64,000 bases of DNA, from the NCBI RefSeq assembly GCF_001552255.1, contig NZ_BCQV01000024.1:1-64000 (forward strand), in the 5' to 3' direction. This DNA is from Alicyclobacillus shizuokensis NBRC 103103. GTDB lineage: Bacteria; Bacillota; Bacilli; Alicyclobacillales; Alicyclobacillaceae. Of the stretch, positions 6,751 to 61,692 are shown piece after piece. Within the stretch, counting starts at the first letter, position 1; each line of letters opens with the position of its first letter. A model generated the notes under the pieces. That model ran no database searches. It was not told the origin of the DNA and saw only the letters and a program-made list of their open reading frames with translations. Made by a program: the position numbers and the translations under genes.

Positions 6751-7689
6751 TCATCCGGATGCCGCCTTGGCCGCGTAGTACGCACGAATGCGCTCGGCGG
6801 CCGGCTTGCCGTACATGCAGTAGCCGCGGTCCGTACTGGCCTGCTCCAAGGGATACAGGTGTGCCGGCCAGTCCCACAGCATATACCCATAGAACCAAGG
6901 TTCCTTATCCAACGCAGCAAACAGGGTCCGATAAAACTCGTCTTGTTCCCCGGGATTGGCTTCCCCCGGATGTGTCCAATCATAGGGCGCTTGGGCCGAT
7001 CCCGTCCGACTTGGGCAACCGACTTCCATGAAGAAAAAGGGTTTGCTCCAGCGCTCGGCAAACGCCCGCAGTTGCTGAACCCGCGCCGGCCAGCTGGCGA
7101 GCGCGTAGTAGCCACTGGACGAAATCACGTCCACCGCGTCCCAGAATTGCACACGCTCCTCTTGGTACTTATCGCAGTTATACGTGACCAGCCCGGAATA
7201 CACGTCCCGGACGCGGGCAACCAGTCTCCGCCAGTCGTCCACTCGCCTATCCGCCTGCACCATCTCGCAGCCCACGCAGAACATCTCACACTGCGTCCTT
7301 TCGGCGATGTCCGCGTAATGTAGGATGAAGTCGTCGTAGCTCTTCCACCACGCGCGCCACCCCGGCTCACCCGGCACCTCGTGGTCAAAGAAATTGATAT
7401 GCGCCCGCCATGTGCCGTCCCGACAATTGACCACCGGTTTGAGGCAGACCTTGATGCCCAGCCGGTGAAAGCGGCGGATGGCGCCAATAACTTCGTCGTC
7501 TGTCAGTGTGTCGCCGCCTGCAAAGTCGATGCGCGTGGACTGCGGCTCATCCTGCAACCCTTGAAACGCAAGCGTCACCCAGTTGATGCCCAACTTGACC
7601 GCTTCCGCCATCGAGTGCTCCGCCTCTGATGTCGCCCACGTACCGGGAATGCCTACCCAACCCCATGTCAATCCCCGGATATACTCCAT
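6751..7689 (-). CDS. GH113-family beta-mannanase/beta-mannosidase
   Basis: This is a 312-residue single TIM-barrel enzyme beginning MEYIRGLTWGWVGIPGTW. It resembles the GH113 mannanase first characterised in Alicyclobacillus acidocaldarius. The likely acid/base is E142 (CVGCEMVQAD) and the nucleophile E222 (FFFMEVGCP). No signal peptide is present, so it acts on oligosaccharides inside the cell. I chose the ATG at 7689 because GGGAGAGG lies nine bases upstream. An in-frame extension to 7749 has no such box and adds unrelated residues. It is the first gene of the operon, 82 bases downstream of a cre box, which suggests carbon catabolite control. Confidence 0.88.
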   Translation of the reverse strand: MEYIRGLTWGWVGIPGTWATSEAEHSMAEAVKLGINWVTLAFQGLQDEPQSTRIDFAGGDTLTDDEVIGAIRRFHRLGIKVCLKPVVNCRDGTWRAHINFFDHEVPGEPGWRAWWKSYDDFILHYADIAERTQCEMFCVGCEMVQADRRVDDWRRLVARVRDVYSGLVTYNCDKYQEERVQFWDAVDVISSSGYYALASWPARVQQLRAFAERWSKPFFFMEVGCPSRTGSAQAPYDWTHPGEANPGEQDEFYRTLFAALDKEPWFYGYMLWDWPAHLYPLEQASTDRGYCMYGKPAAERIRAYYAAKAASG

Positions 7690-8554: not shown

Positions 8555-9541
8555 TCAATCGGACAGGCGTCGAGCCCCAGCGCCGCCGCGCGCGCGGGGC
8601 GTACGCAGGCTGCGCAGCCAAGCCATCCCCCACAAGCACAACAGAAGCCCCGTCAACCACAAGCCCCACATGTCCTCGTGGCACCACTCGCCCAGGTTGA
8701 TGGCCTGCCACATCGTGCCCACGAGACCTTCGGCAAAAATCTGTGTCCACTCAAAGGTGCCGACCATCCAGGCCGCCCCTGCCGACAGGGCAGTGACCGC
8801 CACGTTGTAGCGCCAGCGCCGCACGGGGTCTTGGTTCGCCCAGCCGTAGGCTCGGGCCATGCACAACCCGTCCAAACCGTCCAACAGACTCATGCCGGCC
8901 GAAAACAACAGGGGCAGCACCAGGACGCTCAGGGTTTCCAGAAGACTCCAGGCGTTCGTATGTACATCCCCGATTGTCGCCGTACCGAAAGCCAATAGGG
9001 CAATCTCAGTGGCCGTGTCGAAGCCGAGACCAAACAACAAGCCCACAAAGTACATGTGCCAGTCGCGGTTCACCCACCGCAGACTGACGCCGAACACGGT
9101 GCTCAGGATCCCCTTGCCTGCCGGCGCCTGCCTGTGCTCCGTGCCCGCATGCAGCCGTCTCTTGCGCAACAGGGTCCACAGCACCACCGCGTTCCAGATG
9201 GCCACCACGTAGAGGAAGGTCGCCGAAACCAGAGATCCGGTGAGCGTCAACGCGACCGGGGCGGCGGTGGCCACCCAGTGGCGGCCGCAGACCGCCAGGA
9301 CGGCAACCAACCCAAACACCACGGTGGAATGCCCCAGTGAGAAATACAGACCCACCGCCCGCGGGCGGGATCCCTCGTGCAAAAGTTTGCGCGTGGTGGT
9401 GTCGATGGCGACCATGTGGTCCGCATCGACCGCGTGGCGCAGACCAAACAGGTACGCCATTGGCCCAAGCGTCCACAGGCTCGACAAATGATGGGCCCCC
9501 AACCACCACGCGCCCCATCCCAGGCACTGCAGAACGCCCAT
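8555..9541 (-). CDS. NiCoT-family nickel permease
   Basis: This is a membrane protein of about 328 residues in the HoxN/NixA nickel/cobalt transporter family. The diagnostic motif in the second helix reads RHAVDADHMVAID, and further family motifs are SLGHSTVV and LGFDTATEIAL. It imports Ni2+, which the adjoining urease needs. It is the last gene of the amide/urea operon, about 70 bases after ureD. The start is uncertain: I use the ATG at 9541, six bases after GGAG. The ATG at 9547 and a TTG at 9586 preceded by GGGGGGAG are alternatives. The upstream open frame to 9829 overlaps ureD and is not credible. Confidence 0.88.
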   Translation of the reverse strand: MGVLQCLGWGAWWLGAHHLSSLWTLGPMAYLFGLRHAVDADHMVAIDTTTRKLLHEGSRPRAVGLYFSLGHSTVVFGLVAVLAVCGRHWVATAAPVALTLTGSLVSATFLYVVAIWNAVVLWTLLRKRRLHAGTEHRQAPAGKGILSTVFGVSLRWVNRDWHMYFVGLLFGLGFDTATEIALLAFGTATIGDVHTNAWSLLETLSVLVLPLLFSAGMSLLDGLDGLCMARAYGWANQDPVRRWRYNVAVTALSAGAAWMVGTFEWTQIFAEGLVGTMWQAINLGEWCHEDMWGLWLTGLLLCLWGMAWLRSLRTPRARGGAGARRLSD

Positions 9542-9611
9542 CACCATCTCCGGAGTGCGGCGACAAGGCGCGCCTTGTGGGCTCAATACTCTCCCCCCCT
9601 GTAAGACAGCC

Positions 9612-10466
9612 TTAATACTTGCGCAGCAGCTGCGGCGTCGCGCCGAACCATTCGCGCCAGATGCGCCCCCGAACAACATGAAAGACCTGCTCCACCTCGT
9701 CGGTGGACAATCCGAACACGCGCACCATAAACCCCGGGCCCGGCAGCGGCGACAAGCCGACGCACCCCTGTATACCAAGCCCTTGCACGGACTCGGCCAA
9801 CACGTTATGCGTCGGGTGGGAGAGCTCATAGCCCATCACCAGCAGTGTCCCGTAATGGGTGTAACCTTCCATCTGGCCGAGGCCCAGGAACGTGTTATCT
9901 GGGCACAGCCACTGATGGTCGTACAAAACGGGCCGGTCATCCACCCAAACTGTCAACCACGAGCGAAACTCGCTGTAACGGAACCACCCGCCGTCGGCGG
10001 ACCAGCCCGGGGTGAGAATCTCCGAATAAAGCAGCCGTGAGGAGGAGCTCATGCGCACGTGTGTGCGCTGGTGATAGCGGGCGTTCTCGTAGGGGATGAT
10101 GACATCCGGGCGAAAGTCCAAGCAGCCGCCTGGCGCCAGTTCGATGGCGAGGGACTGTGTGACAGGCCGCACCGGACTCTTGTATACCTTGGTCGCGGAC
10201 TGTGTGGTTAACACCGCCCGCGATCCGCTCTCACAGACCACGGTCAGCTCGTACGCGTCCCCCTCCACACACCCGCCGCCCACGTGAATCAGGTATAATT
10301 GTGGATCTGGCCCCACTCCGTACACCGGGCGGGACAAGCGAAACTCGCCTTCTTCGACCAGGGACTCAATCTCGGTCCGCCCCCGCCGCTCCGCCAACTC
10401 AATCCACAACCGCCCCGTCAACTTCGGACAGCGGGAGTCAGAGCCCGGCCAAGAATGCGTGCTCAT
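9612..10466 (-). CDS. ureD: Urease accessory protein UreD
   Basis: This 284-residue UreD/UreH chaperone forms a complex with UreF and UreG on apo-urease for nickel insertion. Family motifs seen are [29 protein letters not shown] and [13 protein letters not shown]. The ATG at 10466 overlaps the end of ureG by 29 bases, so the two are translationally linked. It follows UreG in the operon, the E-F-G-D order common in Bacillota. Confidence 0.92.
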
Positions 10467-11046
10467 GCAACCACCCCACCACTTCGGCCACACCAACGTC
10501 ATCCCGCAGATTGGTCAGAAACAGTGGACGCCCCGCCCGTGCCCGCAGCGCATCTTGCTCCATGACTTCCAAGCGGGCTCCGACGTACGGTGCCAGGTCA
10601 ATCTTGTTGATGATGAGCAAGTCAGATTTGATCATCCCCTGCCCGTTCTTGCGCGGAATCTTCTCCCCCTGGGCCACGTCAATCACGTAAATGGAGAGAT
10701 CGACGAGCTCCGGGCTGAAGGTTGCCGACAGGTTGTCGCCACCGCTCTCGACAAAAATGACATCCAGGTGTCCGTGACGCTGAAGCAGTTCGTCCATCGC
10801 GGCGAAATTCATGGAAGCATCCTCGCGGATGGCGGTGTGCGGGCACCCGCCCGTCTCGACCCCGATGATGCGGTCCTCGGGCAGCACCCCTGCGCGGATG
10901 AGGTAATTCGCGTCTTCCTTGGTATAGATATCATTGGTAATGACTGCAACACTGAGCTGCGGATACAGCTGGCGCGTCAGTTTATCCACCAACATGGTCT
11001 TGCCGGCGCCAACCGGGCCGCCAATGCCAATACGCACCGTGTCCAA
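10438..11046 (-). CDS. ureG: Urease accessory GTPase UreG
   Basis: This 202-residue SIMIBI-class GTPase supplies nickel to urease. The P-loop is GGPVGAGKT, the UreG metal/dimer motif CPH is in [13 protein letters not shown], the switch region is ESGGDNLSA and the base-specificity motif is NKID. I place the start at TTG 11046, nine bases after AGGAGG. The long open frame upstream overlaps ureF out of frame and is not coding. It lies 20 bases after ureF. Confidence 0.94.
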
Positions 11047-11066
11047 ACCGGAATCCCTCCTGACGA

Positions 11067-11756
11067 CTAGGACATGAAGATTCGCACGTGAACCTGGCTG
11101 TGCCGCAGCTGGGCCATCTCCAGTCCCGGGGATACCGCGCCAAAGTCGCAATCCTGCAGTTGCAGCACCCTGCTGACGGAGTCGGGAATCTGGGCGCGCA
11201 GCGCAAACAGCAACAGCTGTCCATCGGTCTGCCCCAGCGGGATGGCGCGCACCCCGTTCTGCACCTGGACAGCCAAACTGCTGTACAAATAGCCGGCCAA
11301 TCCAAGCGGCATGTCGATCCCGGCGGCGTGCGCAGCCAATCCATACACCACCGCAGGATGCCCATGAACACGACCGGCCCGAACGCCCTCCGCATATTCC
11401 CTCAGCAGCGTGTCCTCTGGAAACAAGGAGCGGGCAGTCACCACCAACCGAGTGCCCATGCGGCACGCCGCGCCGCGGGTCTCCTGCGGAACGTTGTTCA
11501 CATACAGACGCTCGTCCACGCTGGCGATCCGCCCGAAGTCGTGGTCTGCAGCCGCCTCGTGAACAATCCGGAAAGCGAAGCCATCCGTGTACACCAGCGG
11601 CCCTCGCAGATAGGCCTCCAGGTACTCCCGAAACGTCGCCGCATCACACACGCGGCCGTCCTGGATGTACGTCTCCAGCCCCAACGAGTGAGCGTAAGCG
11701 CCGGATGGAAAATTGGAATCGTACAATTGAAGAAGGGTTAACAGCGCGTCCAGCAT
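11067..11756 (-). CDS. ureF: Urease accessory protein UreF
   Basis: This is a 229-residue, mostly helical UreF. The N-terminus [20 protein letters not shown] and HSLGLETYI are highly characteristic. UreF acts as a checkpoint in the UreD-UreF-UreG activation complex. ATG 11756 gives the family-typical N-terminus. A TTG at 11768 that overlaps the ureE stop codon (TTGA) is an alternative start that would couple translation. Confidence 0.92.
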
Positions 11757-11764
11757 GTCGACAG

Positions 11765-12235
11765 TCAATCATGCCCGTGCCCGTGACTATGGCCGTGCTC
11801 CGCGATATGCCGAAACGGCTCCCGCAGCACCCGCTCTTCACGGGCAAAAGGGACGTCGAGGCTGACAAACAACTGCTCCAGCAGTGGATCGTCGGCGACG
11901 ATAAGGGTGTCCCCCTCAAACTGGGCCGGCACATGACGGTTCCCCAGACGGTGCGCCACCTCGCCCATCTCCCGCAATGACCTGGGGGAAACCACCAGCA
12001 CAGGCTCCGGCAACACCGACACCACGACAGCCGCCTCATCATCCATCCACAGGATATCTCCATCGTGCAAAGTTCCGCTGTCCGCCGGCAGCCGCAGCCC
12101 CAGTTCCCGCCCTGATTCTGTGCGAAGCCGCTGTATGCGTTTCAGCAGCGCGTCCGAATTCACCCACACCCTATCCAACCGGCGGGAACCCGCGGCGTCC
12201 CGGTGTACATTGCCCACCACCTTGGTGCAAATCAC
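11765..12235 (-). CDS. ureE: Urease nickel chaperone UreE
   Basis: This 156-residue metallochaperone delivers Ni2+ to UreG. It ends in a histidine-rich tail (HGHSHGHGHD), a nickel-binding feature of many UreE proteins. The peptide-binding half contains DRVWVNSDALLKRIQRLRTESG and the metal-binding half contains LGNRHVPAQ. The GTG start at 12235 follows GGAGG by seven bases. The in-frame extension upstream would run into ureC and is rejected. Confidence 0.92.
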   Translation of the reverse strand: MICTKVVGNVHRDAAGSRRLDRVWVNSDALLKRIQRLRTESGRELGLRLPADSGTLHDGDILWMDDEAAVVVSVLPEPVLVVSPRSLREMGEVAHRLGNRHVPAQFEGDTLIVADDPLLEQLFVSLDVPFAREERVLREPFRHIAEHGHSHGHGHD

Positions 12236-12293
12236 GAAAAAACCTCCGTTTCTCTTGTGGTCATGGGCCGGCGACGGATGGAGCTGCCAGTGC

Positions 12294-14009
12294 TCAAAAC
12301 AGAAAGTACCTCTGCGCCATCGGCAACCTATCCGCAGGTTCACAGTGAACCGGCTCCCCATCCACCCGCACCTCATAAGTCTGCGGATCGATCTCGATCT
12401 CCGGGGTCAGGTCGTTGTGCCGCATGTCCGACTTCTGCAGACGCCTCGTCCCCGACACGGGCAGCGTACGTTTGTGCAAGCCCAGCCTCTGGCCAATCTG
12501 GCTCTCCTGCGCCACCTGGGAGACAAAGGTCACGCAGGTGTCAAACCGCGCCCCGCCCAGAGCTCCGAACATGGGACGATACAGGACAGGCTGGGGCGTC
12601 GGGATGGAGGCATTGGCATCCCCCATCGCCGAGAGCACAATCATGCCGCCTTTGAGCACCAGGTCGGGCTTGATCCCGAAAAAGGCCGGATCCCACAGGA
12701 CCAGGTCCGCCAGCTTTCCTTCCTCCACCGAACCCACATAGTCGCTGATGCCATGGGTGATGGCCGGATTGATGGTGTACTTCGCGACATACCGCTTCAC
12801 CCGCGCATTGTCCCCCACCCGCCCGGCATCCTCCGGCAGCTTCCCGCGCTGGCGCTTCATTTTGTCCGCCGTCTGCCAGGTGCGGATAATCACCTCGCCG
12901 ACACGCCCCATCGCCTGCGAGTCGGAACTCATCATGCTGATGGCGCCCATGTCGTGCAGAATGTCCTCCGCCGCAATCGTCTCTGGGCGAATCCGCGAGT
13001 CGGCAAACGCGATGTCCTCCGGCACGTTCGGATCTAGGTGGTGGCAGACCATCAGCATGTCAAGGTGTTCAGCTACCGTGTTCACGGTGAACGGACGAGT
13101 CGGATTGGTGGAGGACGGCAGGATGTGGGGATACGAAGCCACTTTCATGATGTCCGGAGCGTGTCCTCCCCCGGCGCCCTCCGTATGATAGGTATGAATC
13201 ACGCGTCCCGCAATGGCCTCCAGCGTCCGTTCGACGAACCCGCTCTCGTTCAACGTGTCAGTATGGATGGCCACCTGCACATCCATCTCATCAGCGACCC
13301 GCAGGGCCGCGTCTATCGCCGCCGGCGTGGAGCCCCAGTCCTCGTGCAGCTTCAACCCAATCGCGCCAGCCTCCACCTGCTCCACCAGCGGATCCGCATG
13401 GGACGCGTTGCCCTTGCCGAGAAACCCCACGTTCACGGGCAACCCGTCGGCCGCACGCAGCATCCGGTGCAGGTTCCATACGCCGGGTGTGCACGTCGTC
13501 GCGTTCGTACCGTCCGCCGGGCCGGTGCCCCCGCCGAGCATGGTGGTGATCCCGGATGCCAACGCCGTCGGCACCTGCTGCGGAGAGATGAAGTGAATGT
13601 GCGCATCCACGCCCCCCGCTGTGAGGATTTTCCCCTCGCCCGCAATCACCTCGGTGCCCGCGCCAATCAGGATGTTGACCCCGTCCATTACCCATGGATT
13701 GCCCGCCTTGCCGATGGCCGCAATGCGACCATCGCAAATCCCGACATCCGCCTTGTATATCCCGGAGGCGTCCACAATCACCGCGTTCGTGATCACCAGA
13801 TCCATCACCCCATCCGCCCGCGTGGCGTGAGGGTGCTGTCCCATGCCGTCCCGAATCACTTTTCCCCCGCCAAATTTCACCTCGTCCCCGTACACGGTGA
13901 GGTCTTTCTCGATCTCGATGAACAGCTCCGTGTCGGCCAACCGCACGGCATCCCCGGTCGTGGGACCAAACATGTCCGCGTACTGTCTGCGGGACATCCA
14001 AAGTGTCAT
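12294..14009 (-). CDS. ureC: Urease alpha (catalytic) subunit
   Basis: This 571-residue urease catalytic subunit hydrolyses urea to ammonia and carbamate. The whole active site is present: H137 and H139 (DAHIHF), the carbamylated lysine K220 (GLKLHEDWG), H249, H275, and the mobile-flap C322-H323 (MVCHHLDP). These fall at the standard positions of the Klebsiella numbering. The start ATG overlaps the ureB stop (ATGA). The gene is intact and full length, so the urease should be active provided nickel is available. Confidence 0.98.
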
Positions 14010-14335
14010 GGCTCGGTTTTCTCCTCCAGTGGACCTTCCGCGCGGGCGTTGAACCCGTGCACGCGGCGCTCCCCGGCAAACGGCACCAGTTCCACCGTCC
14101 GGGCATCCCCCGGCTCAAACCGAGCTGCCGTTCCGGATGGAATATTCAGGCGCTTACCCCACGCCTGCGAGCGGTCAAAGACCAGCGCCTCGTTGACCTC
14201 ATAGAAATGATAGTGAGAGCCCACCTGAACCGGCCTGTCGCCGCGATTGACCACGGTCACCGTGACCACCGGCCTGCCCTCGTTGCATGTTATCGGATCG
14301 TCCAAAAGTACATATTCTCCCGGTATCAAAGCCAC
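14006..14335 (-). CDS. ureB: Urease beta subunit
   Basis: This 109-residue UreB-type subunit has [18 protein letters not shown] at the start and the family motif [28 protein letters not shown]. It forms part of the (UreA-UreB-UreC)3 trimer. The assigned GTG at 14335 is only a few bases from its purine-rich box. A TTG at 14329 would give the family-typical MIPGEY start. Confidence 0.95.
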
Positions 14336-14394
14336 TCCACCTTTGATGAAAGTTCAGGGTCTTGCCCAGTGGATCCGGCGCGACGGCTCCGCTA

Positions 14395-14697
14395 CTACGA
14401 GATGGGATTGTGCACAGTGACCAATTTGGTTCCGTCCGGAAACGTCGCCTCCACCTGAATCTCAGGGATCATTTCGGGAATTCCTTCCATGACATCGTCG
14501 CGCGAGAGCACCTGTCGGCCCAATACCATCAGTTCCTCCACCGACTTGCCGTCCCGCGCACCTTCCAAGATCTCGCAGGTGATGAGCGCCACAGCCTCAG
14601 GGTGGTTCAGCTTCAACCCCCGCTCTCTCCGCCGCCGCGCCAAATCCCCCGCCACGACCAGCAACAGTTTTTCCGTCTCCCTATCGGTCAGTCTCAC
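14395..14697 (-). CDS. ureA: Urease gamma subunit
   Basis: This 100-residue small urease subunit has the family signature [14 protein letters not shown] near residue 28 and ends in [11 protein letters not shown]. The GTG start at 14697 lies one base after the amiE stop codon, showing that the urease genes are read through from the amidase genes. That supports one operon for formamide, acetamide and urea use. Confidence 0.95.
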
Positions 14698-14698
14698 G

Positions 14699-15754
14699 TC
14701 AGGTCTCCACCGGTTCCTTGTCCAGCACCGTCTCGGGCTGAGGAATACCCGGGACCGGACACTCTTCGTATCCAATCGTTGGCCGAGTCAACCGTTCAAC
14801 CCGCGCCACCGCCTCGTCCGGGCGGGCCACCCATTCCTTGTAAAAGTCGAACGGGCACTCGGCAACCCCTTTGTCCCCTTCTCCGGAGTGATAGATACCG
14901 GTGTAGCCGCGGTGCAGCAGCTTGAACAGATGATTTTGCGACTGCGCGCTGCGGCGAAAATCGCGAATCTGCGACACGGACAACTCCGCGTACTGGACGC
15001 TGTTCTCCTCTGCCCCGCACTCGCCGAGCGTTCGCCCATCAAAACCGATGATGGCAGAGTGGCCAAAATAGGAATAGACCCCGTCGAATCCACTGGCATT
15101 GGCCACCGCCACATAACAGTTGTTGGCCCACGCCATCGCCTTGGCCATCCACACCTGCTGTTCCTGCGCTGGATACATGTATCCCTGAGCACGCACAATC
15201 AACTCCGCGCCCTTCATCGCGCAATCCCGCCAGATCTCCGGATAGTTGCCGTCATCGCAGATGATCAGGCTGATCATCAAGCCTTTCGGCCCCGGCGTGA
15301 CCAATGTCTGGTTCCCGGGATACCACCCCTCAATCGGCGTCCAGGGCATGATTTTGCGGTACTTCTGCACGATGTTCCCTTCGTTGTCCATGAGCACGAG
15401 CGTATTGTACGGACGCTTGAGGGGGTGATCTTCATGGCGCTCGCCCGTAATGGAGAAGACCCCCCATGTGTTGGCAGCGCGGCAGGCTTGCGCAAAGATC
15501 TCCGTCTCCTTGCCTGGAATCGTAGTTGCCGTCGCCATCATTTCGTCCACGTCATACATGATTCCATGCGTGCTGTACTCGGGGAATACCACCAGGTCCA
15601 TGCCCGGCAGCCCCTGCTTCATGCCCACAATCATGTTGGCAATCCGACGCGCGTTATCAATGACCTCCAATTTGGTGTGCAATCTCGGCATTTTGTAATT
15701 GACGACTGCAACCCCCACCGTATCCTTGCTGCTGGAGATATCCCCATGGCGCAT
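14699..15754 (-). CDS. amiE: Aliphatic amidase
   Basis: This 351-residue nitrilase-superfamily amidase begins [20 protein letters not shown], nearly identical to the start of the Pseudomonas aeruginosa AmiE. The catalytic triad is E59 (VVFPEYS), K134 (VQKYRK) and C166 (ICDDGNYPE). It hydrolyses short aliphatic amides such as acetamide and propionamide to the acid and ammonia. Formamide is a possible substrate, as with the close relative AmiF. The start follows GAGAGGAG by eight bases. It lies between fmdB and ureA, one base from the latter. Confidence 0.95.
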
Positions 15755-15794
15755 CGCACTCGCTCCTCTCGCAGATGGTTGATCCGCCGTTTCC

Positions 15795-16076
15795 TCAGTG
15801 CCCGATTTGCCACGGACGATGCGCACGCTGCACCGCAGCCGGGTGATGATGGTGCGCCTGCGCGCGCCACTCGGCGGCCGACACCCGCCTCGGCTCGGAA
15901 CCGCGTTCCATCCGCTGCCTGAGTAAGGCGGATTGCTGAAGCACCCCAAACGGCCTGTACACGCGCAGCGCCTCGCCGCCGCACTGCGGACACGCCGCCA
16001 CCGAAACGGCCTCGCGCATGCTCAGCGTGAGTTGAAACTCCCCACATTGCCCACAGCGAAACCCATACTCCGGCAT
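15795..16076 (-). CDS. fmdB: FmdB-type zinc-ribbon protein
   Basis: This 93-residue protein starts [12 protein letters not shown] and has a second C-x2-C (CPQCGG), the CxxC-CxxC zinc ribbon of the FmdB family. FmdB was proposed as a regulator of formamidase expression in Methylophilus. It sits directly after fmdA. The C-terminus is histidine-rich (AQAHHHH), which might bind metal. Its exact role remains unproven. Confidence 0.85.
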
Positions 16077-16099: not shown

Positions 16100-17281
16100 T
16101 TACGCGTGCGGCAGCACGTCCCGGTCAAAGATGGCCGTCGGGATGGCCAGCGTGCAACAGGCGTTGGGCACATCGACGATGCCGCTGATGCGCCCCTCCA
16201 CAGGCGCCGTGCCCAAGATCATGTAGCCCTGTTCCGCCGTGTAGCCCAACACCTGCAGGTACGCGATGGCGTTTAGACAGGCCCGCCTATAGGCCACGTT
16301 GGCGTCCAGGTAGTGCTGGGTGCCGGTTGTCTCCTCCACCGAAATCCCTTCAAATACCAGGTACTCGCTGAAGCGAGGCTCCACGGGCCCCGGCCGAAAT
16401 ACAGGATTGTCCGTAATGCCGTATTTGGCCATTCCGCCCTTGATAACGTCGACGTGCAGGTCTATCCATCCACTCATCTCGATGGCGCCGCAGAACGTGA
16501 TCTCTCCGTCCCCCTGCGAAAAATGAATGTCACCGACGGACAACTTGGCCCCGGGCACGAACACAGGGAAGTAGATACGGCTGCCTTTCGACAGGTTTTT
16601 GATGTCACAATTGCCCCCATTTTCTCTCGGCGGCACGGTGCGGGCAGCCTCTGCGGCCACCCTGTCGAATTGCGCACCACGCAGTGAACCCAAGACCGCG
16701 CTTCGCGGTTCAGGCAGGTTGGCCAAAGGCGGAATCCGGCCTGGGTTGGATTTGACCAATTCTCGCTCACGCGCGTTCCACGCATCCAACAATTCGTGGG
16801 AAGGCGCCACCCCTATCAACCCCGGGTGAATCAAGCCGGGAAATCGAACGCCAGGCACGTGACGGGACGTGGTGTAAATTCCGTGGAAATCCCAAATCGA
16901 CTTGCCCGCCTCGGGGAAGTAGTCAACCAGAAACCCGCCCCCGTTCTCGCGCGCGAAGATACCATTGTATCCCCATTCGGCCCCTGGCAGGGCGCCTATG
17001 TCGAGGATGTCCACCACCAGCAGGTCGCCCGGTTCTGCGCCCTCAATGTGGACCGGACCGCTGAGCACGTGCACCCGGGTGAGGTCCACGTCACGAATAT
17101 CGGTCGGATCGTCATTGTTCTGAATCTGCCCATCGGTCCAGTCCTTGCATTCGATGCGAAATTCGGAGCCGGCCTTGACCGATACCGCGGCAGGGATGTC
17201 GGGGTGCCAACGATTGTGTCCAGGTACATCCTGTTCTTCCATTGGTTTAGATAGGTCGATGTGGAACAGAACCTCAGGCAT
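16100..17281 (-). CDS. fmdA: Formamidase (FmdA/AmdA family)
   Basis: This 393-residue enzyme of the acetamidase/formamidase family differs from nitrilases. It begins MPEVLFHIDLSKPMEEQDVPGHNRWHPDIPAA. Other typical stretches are EFRIECKDWTDGQI, VHVLSGPVHIEGAEPGDLLVVDI and GDIHFSQGDGEITFCGAIE. It converts formamide to formate and ammonia. ATG 17281 follows GGGGAGG by nine bases. An in-frame extension to 17335 lacks a binding site. It is the first gene of the operon that runs to the nickel permease, and it faces the divergent NCS1 permease, which probably brings in a substrate for it. Confidence 0.94.
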   Translation of the reverse strand: MPEVLFHIDLSKPMEEQDVPGHNRWHPDIPAAVSVKAGSEFRIECKDWTDGQIQNNDDPTDIRDVDLTRVHVLSGPVHIEGAEPGDLLVVDILDIGALPGAEWGYNGIFARENGGGFLVDYFPEAGKSIWDFHGIYTTSRHVPGVRFPGLIHPGLIGVAPSHELLDAWNARERELVKSNPGRIPPLANLPEPRSAVLGSLRGAQFDRVAAEAARTVPPRENGGNCDIKNLSKGSRIYFPVFVPGAKLSVGDIHFSQGDGEITFCGAIEMSGWIDLHVDVIKGGMAKYGITDNPVFRPGPVEPRFSEYLVFEGISVEETTGTQHYLDANVAYRRACLNAIAYLQVLGYTAEQGYMILGTAPVEGRISGIVDVPNACCTLAIPTAIFDRDVLPHA

Positions 17282-17392
17282 GGACGGTGTCCTCCCCTCA
17301 GCGAACTGCAGACAGAAATGGGATTGAAGATTCACTGCATGACGTCTGCAGAGACCACTCTAGCACGTCAAAAACAAAACACAACGTTTATT

Positions 17393-17407
17393 GTTATATT
17401 TTATAAC
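17393..17407. promoter_or_regulatory. AT-rich palindrome in the fmdA/permease intergenic region
   Basis: GTTATA-TTT-TATAAC is a perfect 6+6 inverted repeat in the middle of the 321-base divergent region (17282-17602). Its position between two divergent units suits an operator controlling both, but no regulator gene is adjacent. No gene is visible in the rest of this region. Confidence 0.35.
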
Positions 17408-17538
17408 ATAAATTCCGAATGCCCGGCCTTTCTACCGACAAAAACAGCCGAGAACGATCTTTTTTCGTTCTGAAATTGTCAAGTTAAATTACAACCAAGA
17501 TTGAAGTGTGCTGGTTTCACGTGATAAAGTGTCCTCAC

Positions 17539-17584
17539 CCACGCCAAATCAACGAAAAACTATATCCATTCTCAATTGGCGTGG
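17539..17584 (+). promoter_or_regulatory. Leader hairpin just before the permease ribosome binding site
   Basis: CCACGCCAA and TTGGCGTGG form a perfect 9-bp stem with a 28-base loop, ending four bases before the GAGAGGAG box of the permease gene. It could influence translation or mRNA stability. I do not recognise it as a known riboswitch. Confidence 0.4.
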
Positions 17585-17602
17585 CAGAGAGGAGTGGAGC
17601 AG

Positions 17603-19306
17603 ATGTCCGTGCTGGATGTGGAACAGAGCCGAAACGCCAGACAGAGGAGAACGTTCAATCGTTGGGTCAACAACCCGGTGATGGAAGACTACGCACTGCG
17701 CTACGCGCCGCGTTCGTTCCGCCGATGGAGTGAATTCACGGTGGCCAACTCGGCATTGGGCGGTATCGCCTACATGGCCGACTTTGCCATCGGCGGTTCT
17801 ATCGCGTTGAGTTTCGGGTTCGCCAATTCGTTGTGGGCCATTCTCGTCGTTGCGGCCATCATCTTCGCCACCGGCATTCCGATTGCCTACTATTCCGCCC
17901 GATACAACATCGACATGGACCTGCTCACCCGCGGCGCCGGATTCGGGTATTATGGATCCACCCTGACCTCCCTGGTCTATGCGTCGTTCACGTTCATCTA
18001 CTTCGCCACCGAAGGATCCGTCATGGCGCAGGCATTAAACCTCTTCTTTCATATCCCGCTGGCGGTCGCATACCTCATCTGCTCCTTGATTGTCATCCCG
18101 CTGGTGATGTACGGGATGACCGCTTTGTCCAAGCTGCAGGTCCTTACGCAGCCTGTCTGGCTGATCATGATGCTCGGTCCACTGGCCGCCATAGCCATCA
18201 AAGACCCGAGCGCGTTCACGGCCTGGAGCCATTTCGCCGGTGCGTCCGCATCAGGGGCGGCGTTCAGCCCGGTTGAATTTGGCCTAGCCTGCGGCGTAAC
18301 GCTCTCCCTCATTGCCCAAATTGGAGAGCAGGTGGATTATCTGCGCTTCATGCCCGACCTGACCCCGTCCAACCGCTCCAAGTGGTGGATGGCGGTCCTC
18401 ATCGCGGGCCCCGGCTGGGTGATTCTCGGCGCCTTGAAACAACTTGCCGGCTCCTTCATGGCTTTTTACATCGATCCGCTGGTCGGCAAGGTGCAGGCGG
18501 ATGAACCGATTCATATGTACACCTACGCCTTCCACACCGTCATCCCGAGCATGTTCGCCGCGCTGGCGGTGGCCACCTTCTTCGTGCTCCTGTCGCAGAT
18601 CAAAATCAATGTCACGAACGCCTATTCGGGGTCCCTGTCCTGGTCCAACTTCTTCTCCCGCATTTTCCACTTTCATCCCGGCCGGGTGGTCTGGCTGTTC
18701 TTGAACGTAGCCATCGCGCTGGCCCTGATGGAGTGGGGAATCTTTGGCTTCCTCAACACGGTGCTCGGGTTCTATTCTAATGTCGCCGTGGCCTGGATAG
18801 GCGCCCTGGTGGCGGACATCGTTGTCAACAAAATGATTCTGGGCATCAGCCCGAAATCCATCGAGTTCAAACGGGGACACCTGTACAACTTCAATCCGGT
18901 CGGATTCGGCTCCATGATCATCGCCTCAGCCGTCTCCATCGCCGCCTTCTTTGGCGCGTTCGGATCCACCCTGCAGGCGTTTTCGGCGCTCTTGTCCCTC
19001 GTCCTGGCGTTTGTACTGGCCCCCATCATCGCGCTGGCGACGAAGGGAAAATACTATATCGCACGCGACAGCCGTCAAGACCATGACGTCGCGACGGCTC
19101 CAGATACGGCGACACTGCACCCGCAGGGTCAGGCTGAGGTCACCTGTTCGTGCTGTGGCTACTCGTATGAACCCGCAGACATCCTGCATTGCCCTTTTCA
19201 CGCCGCTCCGATTTGCTCCTTGTGCTGCAGTCTGGAACAGGCATGTCATGATCAATGTAAGAAAACTCCCCAGACCGTCACGGAGACAAAGGCACTGCGC
19301 GCATAA
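17603..19306 (+). CDS. NCS1 permease with cysteine-rich C-terminal domain
   Basis: This 567-residue protein has about 12 membrane segments in residues 45-490 that match the nucleobase:cation symporter-1/purine-cytosine permease family (GFGYYGS, IAQIGEQVDYLRFMPD, INVTNAYSGSLSWSNFFSR). The last 65 residues are soluble and unlike normal permeases: CSCCGYSYEPADI, then HCPFH, ICSLCCSLE and ACHDQCK, with ten cysteines and several histidines in a probable metal-binding or redox-active fold. ATG 17603 follows GAGAGGAG by eight bases. It is divergent from the formamidase-amidase-urease operon, so an amide, urea-like compound or nucleobase is a sensible substrate. The tail may make it a sensor as well as a carrier, but that is inference. 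Confidence 0.85.
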   Translation: MSVLDVEQSRNARQRRTFNRWVNNPVMEDYALRYAPRSFRRWSEFTVANSALGGIAYMADFAIGGSIALSFGFANSLWAILVVAAIIFATGIPIAYYSARYNIDMDLLTRGAGFGYYGSTLTSLVYASFTFIYFATEGSVMAQALNLFFHIPLAVAYLICSLIVIPLVMYGMTALSKLQVLTQPVWLIMMLGPLAAIAIKDPSAFTAWSHFAGASASGAAFSPVEFGLACGVTLSLIAQIGEQVDYLRFMPDLTPSNRSKWWMAVLIAGPGWVILGALKQLAGSFMAFYIDPLVGKVQADEPIHMYTYAFHTVIPSMFAALAVATFFVLLSQIKINVTNAYSGSLSWSNFFSRIFHFHPGRVVWLFLNVAIALALMEWGIFGFLNTVLGFYSNVAVAWIGALVADIVVNKMILGISPKSIEFKRGHLYNFNPVGFGSMIIASAVSIAAFFGAFGSTLQAFSALLSLVLAFVLAPIIALATKGKYYIARDSRQDHDVATAPDTATLHPQGQAEVTCSCCGYSYEPADILHCPFHAAPICSLCCSLEQACHDQCKKTPQTVTETKALRA

Positions 19307-30928: not shown

Positions 30929-32443
30929 TCACACGTCGGCCACCACACCGCCTACCGGCGTCGGGTCGGTTTCCACCTTCGTCATCCGCTGGTAATCGGC
31001 AACGTCCAGTACCGACGGATGGCCGCGCATCAACAGGACGTAAGCGATGAGTCCGCCGAGCAGGCTGAATAACCAGCCACCGCTCCAGAGAAAGTGGAGC
31101 GAAGGAAACACCAGGCCCAACAGGGCAATCACCCAGCCAATGACGAGCGCCCCCAGCGCACGCAGGTTGAAGCCACGGTCGTAGTCGTAGCGCCCCTCGG
31201 TCGAGTAGAGGGCGAGCAGGTCGAGCCGGCAGGAACGAACCAGCCAGTAGTCGGCGATGGCGATGCCGTCAAACGGCCCGAGGAGAGTGCCGTAGGTGCC
31301 GAGCCAGTTGTAAATGTAGTTGCTGAACTCAGACATCACATACCATGGCTGCATACACAGAGCCAACAGACCGGTGATGGCGGCCCCGACGCCAAACGTG
31401 ATGCGCCGCGGCCACAAATTTTCAAAAGCGCGAGCGGGAGCCATCACGTTGGCGCCCACATTGATGGTCACCGAAGACAAGATCACAACTATCCCCGACA
31501 CGATGACCATGATGGTGGGAAACTTAACGATGAGTTGGACCGGATCCCAAAGCGCTTGGTGATAGAGCATCACCGTCGCCGAAGTGACGGCAATCCCGAT
31601 GAAGGAAAACCAGGCCATGGTCAACGGCATGGACAGGGTCTGACCGAGCACCTGTCCCTTTTGCGTCTGCGCGTAGCGAGTGTAGTCGGGAATGTTGAGA
31701 GCCATCGTCGCCCAGAAGGCGATCACGCCAATCACCGAGGGATAGAACGCGGCCCAAAACTTGGCGCCGTGGATAGTCGCCGGAGCGGACAGCATCGCGC
31801 CAAAACCGCCCGTCCGAAAAGCGGCCCACAACAGCAACACGACCGCCCCGACGGCCAGTGTGGGCGCCGCCACCACGGCCAGCTTGCCGATGGCCTGTGG
31901 ACCGCGCATGGCTATGAGGATGTTGATGGCCCAAAAAACGAGAAACGCGATGCCAAGGTGCCACGCGAATCCGCTCCAACCCGGGATGACCCGGCCCAGA
32001 ATGGCGTCGAGCGCCTGGCCGCCAAACCAGGAGTTAATGCCAAACCACCCGGCTGCGATGACGGCGCGCGCCAGGGCGGGAATGTGCGCCCCCCTCTTGC
32101 CGAACCACAGCCGTGCAAAGACGGGGTACGGAATCCCGAACTTGGTGCCTGCGTGCGACATCAAAAGGATGGGAATTAACACAATACAGCTTCCCACCAG
32201 CACCGTGAGGACCGCCTCCCACCAGTTCATGCCCAGCGCGATGAACCCGCTGGCCATCGAGTAGGTGGGCAGACAGATGCACATGCCAATCCACAACGAC
32301 GCAAACTTCATCCCGGGCCATGCGTGCTCCTTGCGCGTACACGGGCGCAGGTCCTCGTTCCACAGTGTATGGTTGCCTGCCACCGAGCGGGCCGCGGCCT
32401 CGGTCAACATGACGGTATCGCCTCGCTGCACCTGAGTCTGCAC
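30929..32443 (-). CDS. NCS1 permease for pyrimidine/hydantoin-type substrates
   Basis: This 504-residue symporter with about 12 helices belongs to the NCS1 branch that includes Mhp1 hydantoin and PucI allantoin permeases. Signatures are LWNEDLRPCTRKEHAWPGMKFASLW (residues 27-51), WFGINSWFGGQA, MALNIPDYTRYA and NVGANVMAPARAFENLWP. It should import uracil, thymine, dihydropyrimidines or hydantoins with Na+ or H+. The GTG start follows AAAGGAGG by eight bases. It is the last gene of the reductive pyrimidine operon, preceded by an intercistronic hairpin. It lacks the cysteine-rich tail of the other NCS1 permease of the window. Confidence 0.9.
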   Translation of the reverse strand: MQTQVQRGDTVMLTEAAARSVAGNHTLWNEDLRPCTRKEHAWPGMKFASLWIGMCICLPTYSMASGFIALGMNWWEAVLTVLVGSCIVLIPILLMSHAGTKFGIPYPVFARLWFGKRGAHIPALARAVIAAGWFGINSWFGGQALDAILGRVIPGWSGFAWHLGIAFLVFWAINILIAMRGPQAIGKLAVVAAPTLAVGAVVLLLWAAFRTGGFGAMLSAPATIHGAKFWAAFYPSVIGVIAFWATMALNIPDYTRYAQTQKGQVLGQTLSMPLTMAWFSFIGIAVTSATVMLYHQALWDPVQLIVKFPTIMVIVSGIVVILSSVTINVGANVMAPARAFENLWPRRITFGVGAAITGLLALCMQPWYVMSEFSNYIYNWLGTYGTLLGPFDGIAIADYWLVRSCRLDLLALYSTEGRYDYDRGFNLRALGALVIGWVIALLGLVFPSLHFLWSGGWLFSLLGGLIAYVLLMRGHPSVLDVADYQRMTKVETDPTPVGGVVADV

Positions 32444-32469
32444 AATATCGCCTCCTTTCTTGACGGCGG

Positions 32470-32493
32470 AGGCAAGGAGACACCGCCTTGCCT
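32470..32493 (-). promoter_or_regulatory. Intercistronic stem-loop between ureidopropionase and permease genes
   Basis: AGGCAAGG and CCTTGCCT form a perfect 8-bp stem with an 8-base loop in the 69-base gap before the permease. It may act as a partial terminator or RNA-stability element that lowers permease expression relative to the enzymes. Confidence 0.4.
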
Positions 32494-32512
32494 TGTCGCC
32501 GCTGGGGCCCCT

Positions 32513-33406
32513 CTACGGCAACAGGCCCACCATGTCCGTATACGTTTCGGGCCGCCGATCCCGATAGAATTGCCACGTGTTGCGCACCTCGGCAATCTGG
32601 CGTCGGTCCATCACACCCAGGACCACCTCGTCCTGATCACGAGATCCGAGCGCCACAAACTCGCCGCGCGGATTCACCAGGTACGACTGGCCATAGAACT
32701 CGCCCATGTTCCAGGGCGCCTCCCAGCCGACCCGGTTGATGGCGCCAACGTAATAGCCGTTGGCAACCGCGTGAGCCGGCTGTTCCAGCTTCCACAGGTA
32801 TTCCGACAGCCCGGCCACCGTCGCCGACGGGTTGAGCACCAACTCCGCCCCGTGCAAGCCCAACAGCCGCGCCCCTTCCGGGAAGTGGCGGTCATAGCAG
32901 ATGTACACCCCGATTTTGGCGTACTGCGTGTCAAACACCGGGTATCCACCATTACCCGGCTTGAAGTAATACTTCTCCCAGAATCCGCAGCCAGCCGGAC
33001 CGGCTTGTACCTGCGGGATATGGTGCTTGCGGTATTTGCCCAGGTACCGCCCGTCTCCGTCGATCACGGCCGCTGTGTTGTAGTAGACGCCCGGCATCTC
33101 CTCTTCATAAACGGGCACCACCAACACCACTTGAAGCTCCTTGGCCAGCTCCTGCATGCGCCGGATGGTCGGGCCGTCGGGCACAGGCTCGGCCGCCTCG
33201 TACCACTTCGGGTCCTGCTCGGTACAGAAATAGGGCCCGTAAAACAACTCCTGCAAACAGACAATCTTCGCTCCCACAGCCGCCGCCTCGCGGATGAGAC
33301 AGACGTGCTTCTCAATGGCCGCCTGCTTGTGCACAGCCACCGGCTCTCGTCCATCCACGTCGTGATGCGCCTGGATTAAGCCAATCGTCACTTCGCTGCC
33401 CGCCAT
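32513..33406 (-). CDS. Beta-ureidopropionase / N-carbamoyl-beta-alanine amidase
   Basis: This 297-residue nitrilase-superfamily amidase has the catalytic residues glutamate in CLQELFYGPYFC, lysine in YRKHHIPQ and cysteine in YICYDRHFPEGAR. The pattern fits the plant/bacterial N-carbamoyl-beta-alanine amidohydrolases and N-carbamoylputrescine amidases. Next to dihydropyrimidinase it should hydrolyse N-carbamoyl-beta-alanine to beta-alanine, CO2 and ammonia, the third step of reductive pyrimidine breakdown. ATG 33406 follows AAAGGAGG by seven bases and lies 23 bases after the dihydropyrimidinase stop. Confidence 0.9.
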   Translation of the reverse strand: MAGSEVTIGLIQAHHDVDGREPVAVHKQAAIEKHVCLIREAAAVGAKIVCLQELFYGPYFCTEQDPKWYEAAEPVPDGPTIRRMQELAKELQVVLVVPVYEEEMPGVYYNTAAVIDGDGRYLGKYRKHHIPQVQAGPAGCGFWEKYYFKPGNGGYPVFDTQYAKIGVYICYDRHFPEGARLLGLHGAELVLNPSATVAGLSEYLWKLEQPAHAVANGYYVGAINRVGWEAPWNMGEFYGQSYLVNPRGEFVALGSRDQDEVVLGVMDRRQIAEVRNTWQFYRDRRPETYTDMVGLLP

Positions 33407-33429
33407 GGACGAGCCTCCTTTCGCGGTCT

Positions 33430-34821
33430 TCAAAGTACAGTCGCACTCACCCGACCGCAGCGTTGAAACCGTCCCATCCCCGGGTGGCCATAGAACTGCC
33501 CGCCATCCACAATCACCTGGCCGCGAAGCAGCACCGTGCGCGCCTGGCCGCGTACGCGCATGCCCTCAAAGATGCTGTTGTCCACGTTCATGTGATGAGT
33601 GGCTGCGGAGATGGTGCGTTCGACGTCCGGATCCCAGATCACCAGGTCGGCGTCGCTGCCCACGGCCACCGTGCCCTTGCGCGGGAACAGGCCGAACAAC
33701 TTGGCATTGTTGGTCGATGTCAGGGCGACGAAGCGATTGAGAGAAATACGCCCCTCGTTGACCCCATAGTGATACAAAATCGCCATCCGGTCCTCTATTG
33801 TCGGCGCACCGTTCGGGATCTTGGAGAAATCGTTACGTCCGAGCTCCTTCTGGCCTTGGAAATTAAACGAACACTGGTCCGATCCGAACGCCACCAGTTC
33901 CCCGTTGCGCAGGCTGCTCCACAACACCTTCTGGTGAAATGGCTCGCGCAGGGGCGGGGACATCACGTACTTGGCCCCCTCGAAGCCGGGACGCTCGTAG
34001 TCACTGAAGTCGCAGACCAGATACTGCGGGCAAGTCTCGCCAAAAATCGGAAGGCCGCGTTTGCGCGCGTCGCTAATGGCCTCTGCTGCCTGAGCGCATG
34101 TGACGTGCACGACATACAATGGCGCCCCCGCAATCTCCGCCAGTCGAATGGCCCGCTCAGTCGCCTCTCCCTCCGCCTCGGGCGGCCGGGTCAGGGCGTG
34201 ATATTTGGGTTCCACATGGCCCTGGGCCAACGCCTCGCGCACCAGGACATCAATCACATCCCCGTTTTCCGCATGCACCTGCACCAGGGCGCCGCTTTGC
34301 GCCGCCATGCGCAGGGTTTGGAACAGGGTCTCGTCGTCGACCTGGAGGTTGTTTTTGTAGGCGAGAAACACTTTGAAGGAGGACACGCCCTCTTCCTCGA
34401 CGATGCGCGGGATTTCGTTGCGCACCTGCTCATTCATGTCGCCAACCATCACGTGGAACGCGTAGTCGATGGTCGCCTTGCCCTCGGCTTTGCCGTGCCA
34501 GGTGCGAATCGCGTTTTGCAGCGTGTCTCCCTTACTGTGCAGGGCAAAGTCAATCACGGTGGTGGTGCCACCGAAGGCGGCGGCCACCGTACCGGTGCGA
34601 AAGTCGTCAGCCGTAACCGTGCCGCCAAAGGGCATGTCGAGGTGGGTGTGCGGATCGACCCCGCCTGGGAACACGTAACAGCCGGCCGCCTCCACCACTT
34701 GGTGACCCGACGTGTCGATACGGCGGGCAATGGCAGTCACCACCTCGCCTTCAATCAGGATGTCCGCCTCCTGGGTATCGGTCGCGGTCACCACCGTCCC
34801 TCCACGAATCACCGTTCCCAT
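33430..34821 (-). CDS. hydA: Dihydropyrimidinase (D-hydantoinase)
   Basis: This 463-residue cyclic amidohydrolase opens dihydrouracil or dihydrothymine to the N-carbamoyl amino acid. It has the metal motif DPHTHLDMPF, the bridging lysine in SSFKVFLAYKN, further metal histidines in VQVHAENGD and YVVHVTCAQAAE, and the late aspartate in AFGSDQCSF. It matches dihydropyrimidinases in length and motif order. The ATG is preceded by GGGAGGG. It lies 124 bases after preA and 23 before the ureidopropionase gene, completing the second step of the pathway. Confidence 0.95.
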   Translation of the reverse strand: MGTVIRGGTVVTATDTQEADILIEGEVVTAIARRIDTSGHQVVEAAGCYVFPGGVDPHTHLDMPFGGTVTADDFRTGTVAAAFGGTTTVIDFALHSKGDTLQNAIRTWHGKAEGKATIDYAFHVMVGDMNEQVRNEIPRIVEEEGVSSFKVFLAYKNNLQVDDETLFQTLRMAAQSGALVQVHAENGDVIDVLVREALAQGHVEPKYHALTRPPEAEGEATERAIRLAEIAGAPLYVVHVTCAQAAEAISDARKRGLPIFGETCPQYLVCDFSDYERPGFEGAKYVMSPPLREPFHQKVLWSSLRNGELVAFGSDQCSFNFQGQKELGRNDFSKIPNGAPTIEDRMAILYHYGVNEGRISLNRFVALTSTNNAKLFGLFPRKGTVAVGSDADLVIWDPDVERTISAATHHMNVDNSIFEGMRVRGQARTVLLRGQVIVDGGQFYGHPGMGRFQRCGRVSATVL

Positions 34822-34945
34822 AGGTCCAGCCCTCCCTGATCACACAAATCCAACAGCATCATCGGCTTGCCGTTTGAAGATGGACGTCTCCTGCCATAGC
34901 CTTAACGCCGTATGTCGCCTTTCACAACGCTCACCCAAGCATTTG

Positions 34946-36202: not shown

Positions 36203-36204
36203 GC

Positions 36205-37572: not shown

Positions 37573-37753
37573 GAGAATTCCTCCTTCCCATGTGCGCTTG
37601 CTGCATGATGTTTCATGTGAATTATATGGGCACGCCCGTCCTCCCAAAAGCTAAAATGTTAAAAATCATGACATATATCTCAGGATTTTTTTCTGTTCAC
37701 ATGCGTAGATACTCTAATCTGTTATAATTACTTACAAATTACCGCGTCAGAGG

Positions 37754-59439: not shown

Positions 59440-59540
59440 CGAGACCCCTCCCTCTACGTGAGTCTGGTGATCTCTCGACGCCTTCGGAGACGATGTGCTA
59501 GGAATGTGAACGTCATTGGCATCGATCCGCGGACAGTCCG

Positions 59541-59783: not shown

Positions 59784-59798
59784 GAACGATGCCCCCTC

Positions 59799-61307: not shown

Positions 61308-61377
61308 GGAAAATCCCCCCCTCTACAGTTTTGAATCCCGTCCCGTTTGATAGAAATAGCATGGAACCCAGCTCGTT

Positions 61378-61680: not shown

Positions 61681-61692
61681 ATCTATCTCCCC

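Follow-up and report, generated by a model that had tools for sequence, protein, structure and literature searches.

The gene at positions 17603-19306 of the window, i.e. of the whole 64,000-nucleotide stretch of DNA that was analysed, encodes a membrane carrier with a predicted NCS1-like fold that ends in a conserved module of eight cysteines. The same carrier and module are joined to a histidine kinase in relatives from Pseudomonadota and in most of the cyanobacterial members, sensor kinases being fusion partners that an earlier note on this DNA had proposed to look for with the tail. The protein is probably a secondary carrier for short-chain amides and/or urea equipped with an eight-cysteine coupling module, the fused form being a sensor. 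The carrier, with its NCS1-like (LeuT) fold, would import the substrates of the divergently transcribed operon (formamide, acetamide and/or urea), and the module would form an independent cytoplasmic domain at the base of the carrier, coupling it to something intracellular. The standalone form would be an uptake system that replaces an ABC importer of the UrtABCDE/FmdDEF type. In the fused form, carrier and module are joined to two further predicted helices and a histidine kinase, and this protein would sense the same substrates and turn on the urt/fmd genes through a LuxR-type regulator.

The tailed carrier and its locus

The open reading frame of the carrier starts with ATG, immediately preceded by aggag, and a longer frame is possible from a TTG at 17576. 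The encoded chain ends 15 residues past C552, with no kinase in the same chain. The features of the locus are the following:

8555-9829, minus strand: urease-cluster gene for a probable nickel/cobalt transporter (by eye, from the motif GLRHAVDADH, typical of NiCoT proteins)
9612-11768, minus strand: accessory genes, presumably UreF-, UreG- and UreD/H-like (by eye, from the list of open reading frames)
11765-12376, minus strand: UreE (PF02814 and PF05194)
12294-14009, minus strand: urease alpha subunit (PF00449 and PF01979)
14006-14775, minus strand: presumed beta (14006-14335) and gamma (14395-14775) subunits of urease (by eye, from the list of open reading frames)
14699-15949, minus strand: nitrilase-type amidase/formamidase, AmiE/AmiF-like (PF00795, E 3e-50; open reading frame as listed, the real start being probably further in)
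16100-17335, minus strand: acetamidase/formamidase, FmdA_AmdA (PF03069, E 6e-188)
17336-17602, no strand: intergenic stretch between the carrier gene and the divergent fmdA-type operon (from the list of open reading frames)
17603-19306, plus strand: standalone NCS1-like carrier with C-terminal eight-cysteine module, 567 residues (open reading frame and relatives)
17684-19066, plus strand: membrane domain, residues 28-488, with predicted NCS1-like / LeuT fold (AlphaFold2, Foldseek, VIA and hhalign)
19067-19138, plus strand: fast-evolving linker, residues 489-512 (dN/dS and pLDDT)
19139-19264, plus strand: eight-cysteine module, residues 513-554 (cysteine conservation and dN/dS)

The clusters CSCC, HCPFH, ICSLCC and ACHDQC described in the earlier note are all present as written in this protein, and the second NCS1 protein of the window (30929-32443), cited there as a carrier of the ordinary kind, has indeed no cysteine tail in its translation and matches PF02133 at 5e-101. 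The NCS1 label given to the tailed protein itself stands as a distant one, since profile-profile comparison and the predicted fold agree with it but PF02133 does not match the carrier. None of 21 scanned members matches that family at E≤1, the four PF02133 matches in the own genome include neither of its two tailed proteins, and no Pfam model reaches the cut-off for either the membrane domain or the tail. The NCBIfam models gave a weak cytosine-permease match to the carrier (3e-6), and a match of this weak kind was found in two of 21 relatives.

An AlphaFold2 model, on which the fold assignment rests, was built from 21 sequences and reached a mean pLDDT of 76.3 and a pTM of 0.78, the pLDDT falling below 50 at residues 488-510. 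When the PDB was searched with Foldseek, Mhp1 and CodB occupied all of ranks 1-5 (E 1e-8 to 5e-7). VIA-align gave a Z of 31.0 for CodB (rmsd 3.8, 397 aligned) and of 27.5 for Mhp1 (rmsd 3.9, 421 aligned), the best chain of another family reaching 23.7. NCS1 chains outranked SLC5 chains for the window protein with both programs, the two folds being related. With hhalign in global mode, 109 members set against 21 NCS1 rows, which count the NCS1 protein of the window twice, gave 99.5% (E 3e-21, 469 columns), a smaller family profile against a single NCS1 sequence gave 13.6%, and a profile search of the PDB sequences found nothing. The membrane part, as modelled, is NCS1-like and lies outside the curated NCS1 family.

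The likeness to Mhp1 and CodB covers the predicted fold over residues 27-490, the profile match and two aligned sites, namely Glu137 and Asn339, both present in 111 of 111 aligned members and facing Gln121 and Asn318 of Mhp1. The family differs from these carriers in escaping PF02133, in the extra module, in having Tyr, Phe or Leu at position 133 where Mhp1 has Trp117, and in position 334, which is Lys in 109 and Arg in two of the 111 members. This position aligns with Ser312 of Mhp1, a sodium ligand on helix 8. Because Lys or Arg stands instead of Ser/Thr at this sodium site, the protein is named here NCS1-like and not a classical NCS1 member. A positive charge replacing the sodium ligand suggests proton coupling, or no coupling to sodium. 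In the carrier-derived sensor kinase CbrA, a lysine (K196) is also present and its protonation is discussed in the accessible part of the source (PMC13022988).

Standalone and fused members also differ in the membrane part. In the standalone group, helix 1 contains D60 in 28 of 31 members and helix 8 contains S342/S346 in 29 of 31, whereas fused members have Leu or Met at position 60, and E61, A342 and A346 in 73 of 73, changes which suggest that the two forms have different jobs. The fusion apparently arose once, so that these fused-specific changes count as one event and are no proof of function. The standalone exceptions at position 60 (L029, L114 and L124) are the three members that have an amidase-signature enzyme as neighbour, and they cluster on the tree (98/93); this link is therefore also a single event, and L029 provided the amidase-signature reference and hence matches itself. 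Judging from these alignments, positions 60 and 61 are a lead for substrate choice.

The eight-cysteine module

Nine of the 11 cysteines of the carrier are located within residues 511-567, the last 57 of the chain. The module has the pattern C515-x2-C518-x11-C530-x7-C538-x2-C541-C542-x5-C548-x3-C552-K and is followed by 13 loose residues, and C517, the ninth tail cysteine, varies among relatives. Across the aligned members with a full tail, all eight cysteines and their spacing are the same in 106 of 106 (73/73 fused, 31/31 standalone including the window protein and 2/2 divergent members). This set includes a deep branch, L128 and L129, whose membrane part is only about 30% identical, and by eye the eight cysteines are present in L235 as well. 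Most members were retrieved with a profile of the tail, which biases this conservation upwards; as a check, the membrane part was used on its own in two further searches.

The dN/dS ratio of the module was 0.035 against A. kakegawensis and 0.120 against A. herbarius, and the linker before it gave 0.54 and 0.65, respectively; a third comparison, with A. pomorum, was saturated. A low ratio in the module beside a loose linker indicates a separate folded domain and not drift or a frameshift. A frameshift and the absence of the tail from all homologues, which the earlier note had named as grounds for abandoning its proposal, are excluded by these ratios and by relatives of other genera that have the same module in frame, and a chance origin of the tail was rejected as well. 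No clear case of a gene consisting of the tail alone was found, three places with short frames having been checked. L232 (G354) and L234 (G355) are decayed remnants adjoining ureC, L233 (G347) is split by an unread stretch, and L237 (G366) is a fused kinase truncated by the end of a contig.

The module was modelled at low confidence (block pLDDT 43-61), so zinc sites cannot be read from the model, and the tail profile retrieved from the PDB only weak zinc-finger fragments. Eight invariant cysteines are compatible with two four-ligand sites. In five Actinomycetota members with half a tail, C515, C518, C530, H533, C538 and C541 are kept (five of the eight cysteines, including the CxxC...CxxC pair), and C542, C548 and C552 are lost together, a joint loss consistent with the disappearance of one of two metal sites. 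On the basis of these patterns, the module is probably a two-site zinc fold, with zinc as the likeliest ligand.

Relatives, kinase fusions and gene neighbourhoods

A first scan of GTDB genomes yielded 22 loci, of which 16 stop shortly after the tail and five continue as a histidine kinase; the remaining one, L022, has a broken frame. The standalone relatives found in it belong to Alicyclobacillus, Sulfobacillus, Thermogemmatispora, Rubrobacteraceae, two cyanobacteria and others. When the tail profile was used, 52 of 398 Pseudomonadota genomes were positive, with 57 places that all have frames of 883-1365 residues, and 10 of 194 cyanobacterial genomes contained ten fused and one standalone member. 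The order of the window genome was positive in 21 of 59 genomes (full standalone frames of 513-628 residues and some fragments), Chloroflexota in 7/201 (576-629 residues) and Actinomycetota in 8/246, of which two have a full tail, five half a tail and one a broken frame. Bacillota at large, searched at a looser cut-off, gave 5/299, the own genome alone being convincing and the other four being short partial hits of about 18 bits.

The membrane part alone retrieved four of 299 Bacillota genomes: the own genome, those of the tail-less L249 and L250 (about 33% identical) and that of the more distant tail-less L251 (23%). The same search in Actinomycetota gave eight of 198 genomes, seven of them strong (two full tail, five half tail) and one weak (G1146). 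Since tail-less relatives such as L249 and L250 exist, the module is not required for the fold.

The chain continues for 1-23 residues past the tail in standalone members and for at least 167 in fused ones (167 being set by a contig end), with no intermediates. Pfam recognizes HisKA, HATPase_c and a receiver domain in the Pseudomonadota fusions L018, L025, L026 and L236, and in the Elainella fusion it finds HATPase_c and a HisKA under the cut-off but no receiver domain. A profile of the kinase core, made from the fusions themselves, matches 56/56 Pseudomonadota and 9/9 cyanobacterial fused loci, all nine of the latter having been missed with a single-protein reference. In a model of a fused protein (pTM 0.54), the module and the kinase core are separated by helices at 561-595 and 603-706, and the model matches kinase structures as well as Mhp1. 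Plasmid records name the fused genes 'ATP-binding protein', 'response regulator', 'hybrid histidine kinase' or 'ArcB'.

In a tree with an NCS1 outgroup (26 of the 111 alignment rows and seven others, L247 not used), the tail-less relatives branch first, then the tailed standalone carriers (90/84) and then the fused clade (100/99), which is the sister of the cyanobacterial standalone carriers (99/99). In a larger quick tree, drawn from 78 of the 111 rows, the 40 fused rows included all fall on one side of a branch (99). From the underlying alignment, L130 and L187 were dropped as fragments and L188 as a duplicate, and L022, L027 and L202 were never part of it; both trees have long branches, and the placement of the divergent rows and the deepest part are unsure. 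From this order, the tail seems older than the kinase fusion, in which case it must serve a carrier without kinase.

Gene neighbourhoods were scored in flanks of up to about 10 kb, shorter at contig ends, with reference proteins from the window, the own genome and annotated plasmids. At least one amide/urea gene was located near 54 of the 56 fused Pseudomonadota loci with flanks (UrtA in 45, FmdA in 37, AmiF in 18 and UreC in 10), and a LuxR-type regulator near 54. UrtA is divergent from the fused gene in 43 of the 45 cases, and in 37 the matches start less than 1 kb apart. The 11 fused loci without UrtA comprise two with FmdA alone, four with UreC alone, three with UreC and UrtC-E at the edge of the stretch, and two on short contigs, L176 and L187, which have no partners. 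FmdA is present and UrtA absent at the fused loci L019, L156 and L171, where the protein may both import and sense; L019, the 57th Pseudomonadota place and outside the 56, also has FmdB.

Among 33 standalone loci, FmdA was found near 13, AmiF near 12, UreC near 12, an amidase-signature enzyme near three and UrtA near none; at least one such enzyme is near 27, and at six neither UrtA nor any of the searched enzymes was found. From the 22 loci of the first scan, L022, L007 (the same as L008) and L003-L005 (the same as L119, L127 and L113) were left out of this set, and the near-copies L013/L131 and L009-L012/L021 were kept; these counts come from few loci, some of them near-copies. The window is absent from the 33 used for the enzymes and present in the 34 used for the kinase count given below. 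The searched enzymes and importer genes were near none of nine cyanobacterial fused loci, and a comparison of ten cyanobacterial loci all against all revealed no widely shared neighbour. None of the searched amide/urea genes was near the five half-tail Actinomycetota genes, nor in control stretches from eight of these genomes at a distance of 1 Mb (0/8).

The linkage is indirect evidence for an amide or urea substrate, and the distribution of the importer separates the two forms. Among 26 genomes with the standalone form (one copy broken), UrtA exceeded the curated cut-off in one, Elainella, which also has the fused form; nine more such genomes gave weaker UrtA matches, two of them to a different fusion. 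The importer is thus usually absent with the standalone carrier and usually present with the kinase form, which argues that the former imports and the latter senses. Both forms meet within about 9 kb in Elainella (L188), where the standalone carrier and FmdA run in one direction and the fused kinase and an overlapping regulator gene in the opposite one. This regulator has a weak receiver domain, just under the Pfam cut-off, and a MarR-like DNA-binding domain.

Alternative functions, known systems and significance

Two other roles for the carrier itself have been considered, both of them unlikely. The standalone protein could be a transceptor that transports little and whose tail docks a separate kinase or a nitrogen-status protein, reporting amides to the divergent operon. 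Its tail does have the pattern of the fused kinases, maintained by selection, and the kinase-core profile matched in the flanks of four of 34 standalone loci (L114, L125, L006 and L014), that of L125 lying less than 1 kb upstream of the carrier gene together with a receiver-domain gene. However, the kinase at L014 is the Elainella fused kinase, four of eight control stretches also contain a kinase, and the 10 kb or so on either side of the window gene contain none. At least among close neighbours, then, the standalone form does not regularly have a separate kinase. Moreover, with UrtA missing from the standalone loci and from nearly all of their genomes, another protein would have to take up the substrate, and the changes in the membrane part (D60 to Leu/Met60 plus E61, S342A, S346A) also speak against a shared job. 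The earlier suggestion of a carrier that also reports on substrate or metal status fits the fused relatives; for the window protein, uptake is better supported than reporting. The carrier could also import another nitrogen compound, such as a pyrimidine or a carbamate, the amidases being part of a longer pathway. NCS1 relatives transport nucleobases, hydantoins and allantoin, and the paralogue on C30 adjoins an amidase and an isochorismatase-like gene, but the neighbours that recur across phyla are amide/urea hydrolases and amide/urea importers.

For the tail, a redox or iron site of rubredoxin-like CxxC...CxxC type that gates the carrier by its oxidation state appears improbable. Single sequences gave rubredoxin matches (E 0.002) and the half tail of Actinomycetota retains the CxxC...CxxC pair, but rubredoxin has four cysteines and the module eight, and the weak likeness, restricted to the CxxC...CxxC part, was not repeated with the tail profile, so that membership of the rubredoxins was rejected. 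A role of the tail in sensing or storing nickel for the adjoining urease is very improbable. The urease genes lie within the same divergent cluster in the window, and the earlier note held that a carrier reporting on substrate or metal status would suit a place beside these nickel-dependent genes. A special connection with nickel or urease is not borne out by the neighbourhoods: UreC is near only 12/33 standalone and 10/56 fused loci, none of the searched genes accompanies the nine cyanobacterial fusions, and the same tail occurs beside formamidase, amidase or importer genes with no UreC in reach. The tail has three histidines in residues 511-567 and no His-rich stretch, and by eye the urease cluster seems to have its own nickel transporter.

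A secondary carrier for amides and/or urea, with a sensor as its fused form, is the reading followed here, and several known systems resemble it in part. Importers of the UrtABCDE/FmdDEF type belong to the same operons as this family but are ABC systems. The fmd genes of Methylophilus are induced by formamide and urea, as stated in the available text of a review (PMC10781810), and urtABCDE co-located with formamidase has been interpreted as serving formamide uptake in the accessible part of PMC13209695. The urt/fmd loci are described in the portions available of PMC13209695 and PMC13296017, and a figure legend on urea genes in the latter marks a hybrid kinase and a LuxR regulator. For fmd induction, the accessible text on UrtABCDE/FmdDEF systems gives FmdB as a putative positive regulator and names no sensor.

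CbrA and the other SLC5-STAC histidine kinases have a carrier domain, a small intracellular domain and a histidine kinase in one chain, according to the accessible part of PMC13022988, and the fused relatives share this layout. They differ in being NCS1-like and not SLC5, and in having the eight-cysteine module and, in the model, two helices at the position of the helical STAC domain of CbrA as described in that partial text. The Pfam scan of the fused proteins reported no STAC domain, although Pfam may hold no STAC model. The window protein differs further from CbrA in being without a kinase. Comparison with the ammonium-transporter histidine kinase of Kuenenia, of the Ks-Amt5 type, is valid for the fused relatives only, and the fold is Amt in one case and NCS1-like in the other. 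In the Kuenenia protein, a transporter fold serves as the kinase sensor for a nitrogen source, as given in the available part of PMC5764959.

Carrier-derived sensor kinases are few, CbrA being called rare in the accessible text of PMC13022988, and the tailed-carrier family is apparently undescribed. No description of an NCS1-like histidine kinase or of the eight-cysteine module was found in the literature searched, which took in few subscription papers, and the accessible parts of PMC11109136, PMC8399564, PMC6296734 and PMC12918730 contain nothing on the family. It is easily overlooked because Pfam gives no match above the cut-off and the fused genes have varied names in plasmid records.

A more tentative proposal, somewhat short of an even chance in our judgement, is that a family of kinases which sense urea and short-chain amides and are common in Pseudomonadota evolved in three traceable steps, from a plain carrier through a tailed carrier to the two-helix histidine kinase fusion, with the acidic residue of helix 1 moving from D60 to E61. 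In the standalone form, the tail would already have acted as a conformational output or a docking port. The apparent intermediates survive as carriers that have no tail, a tail only, or a tail and a kinase, the last two sharing the Elainella locus with a formamidase, so that the transition from carrier to receptor is directly testable. Candidate residues for such tests are the eight cysteines, D60/E61, K334 and E137, and the fused family is a candidate for the sensor that induces the fmd/urt operons.

Tailed carriers elsewhere and their gene neighbours

A second carrier with the cysteine tail, 57% identical to the carrier of the window, is encoded in the same genome (locus L029), and the helix 1 residue D60 is absent from it. 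The two genes adjoining it were named by eye.

L029:8718-10391, (-), second tailed carrier
L029:10446-11855, amidase-like gene
L029:8050-8658, isochorismatase-like gene

The form in which carrier and tail run on into a histidine kinase is found on a Klebsiella plasmid, with urtABCDE-formamidase genes divergent from it, and of the 506 plasmid records that matched the tail, 338 are from Klebsiella.

L028:8519-11899, (+), fused kinase

Broken or decayed tailed copies were located beside urease or amide hydrolase genes.

L232, about 6980-7374, beside ureC
L234, about 6751-6867, beside ureC
L202, about 9885, beside ureC and fmdA
L022, beside an AmiF-like gene

In Actinomycetota, loci L198-L201 and L203 encode carriers that keep half of the tail, with C542, C548 and C552 (window carrier numbering) jointly lost; none of the amide genes searched for lies near these loci.

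Other clusters of the window

A pyrimidine or hydantoin catabolic cluster, judged by eye, lies at 30929-37647 and includes an NCS1 carrier, which matches PF02133, and N-carbamoyl amidohydrolase-like, dihydropyrimidinase-like and PreA/PreT-like genes, assigned by eye. At 56475-62805, inspection by eye points to genes for a multicomponent monooxygenase, with a reductase and two ferritin-like subunits, accompanied by a regulator.

UrtA-like domain joined to a sigma-54 activator

In two Alicyclobacillus relatives, the UrtA-like binding domain (Peripla_BP_5) is joined to a sigma-54 activator.

L238:4163-7033, (-), fusion with Fis-type HTH
L239:4827-6923, (+), fusion whose frame ends early

Since Peripla_BP_5 starts at residue 7 in both fusions, a signal peptide is apparently absent, and the fusions are possible cytoplasmic sensors of amide or urea.
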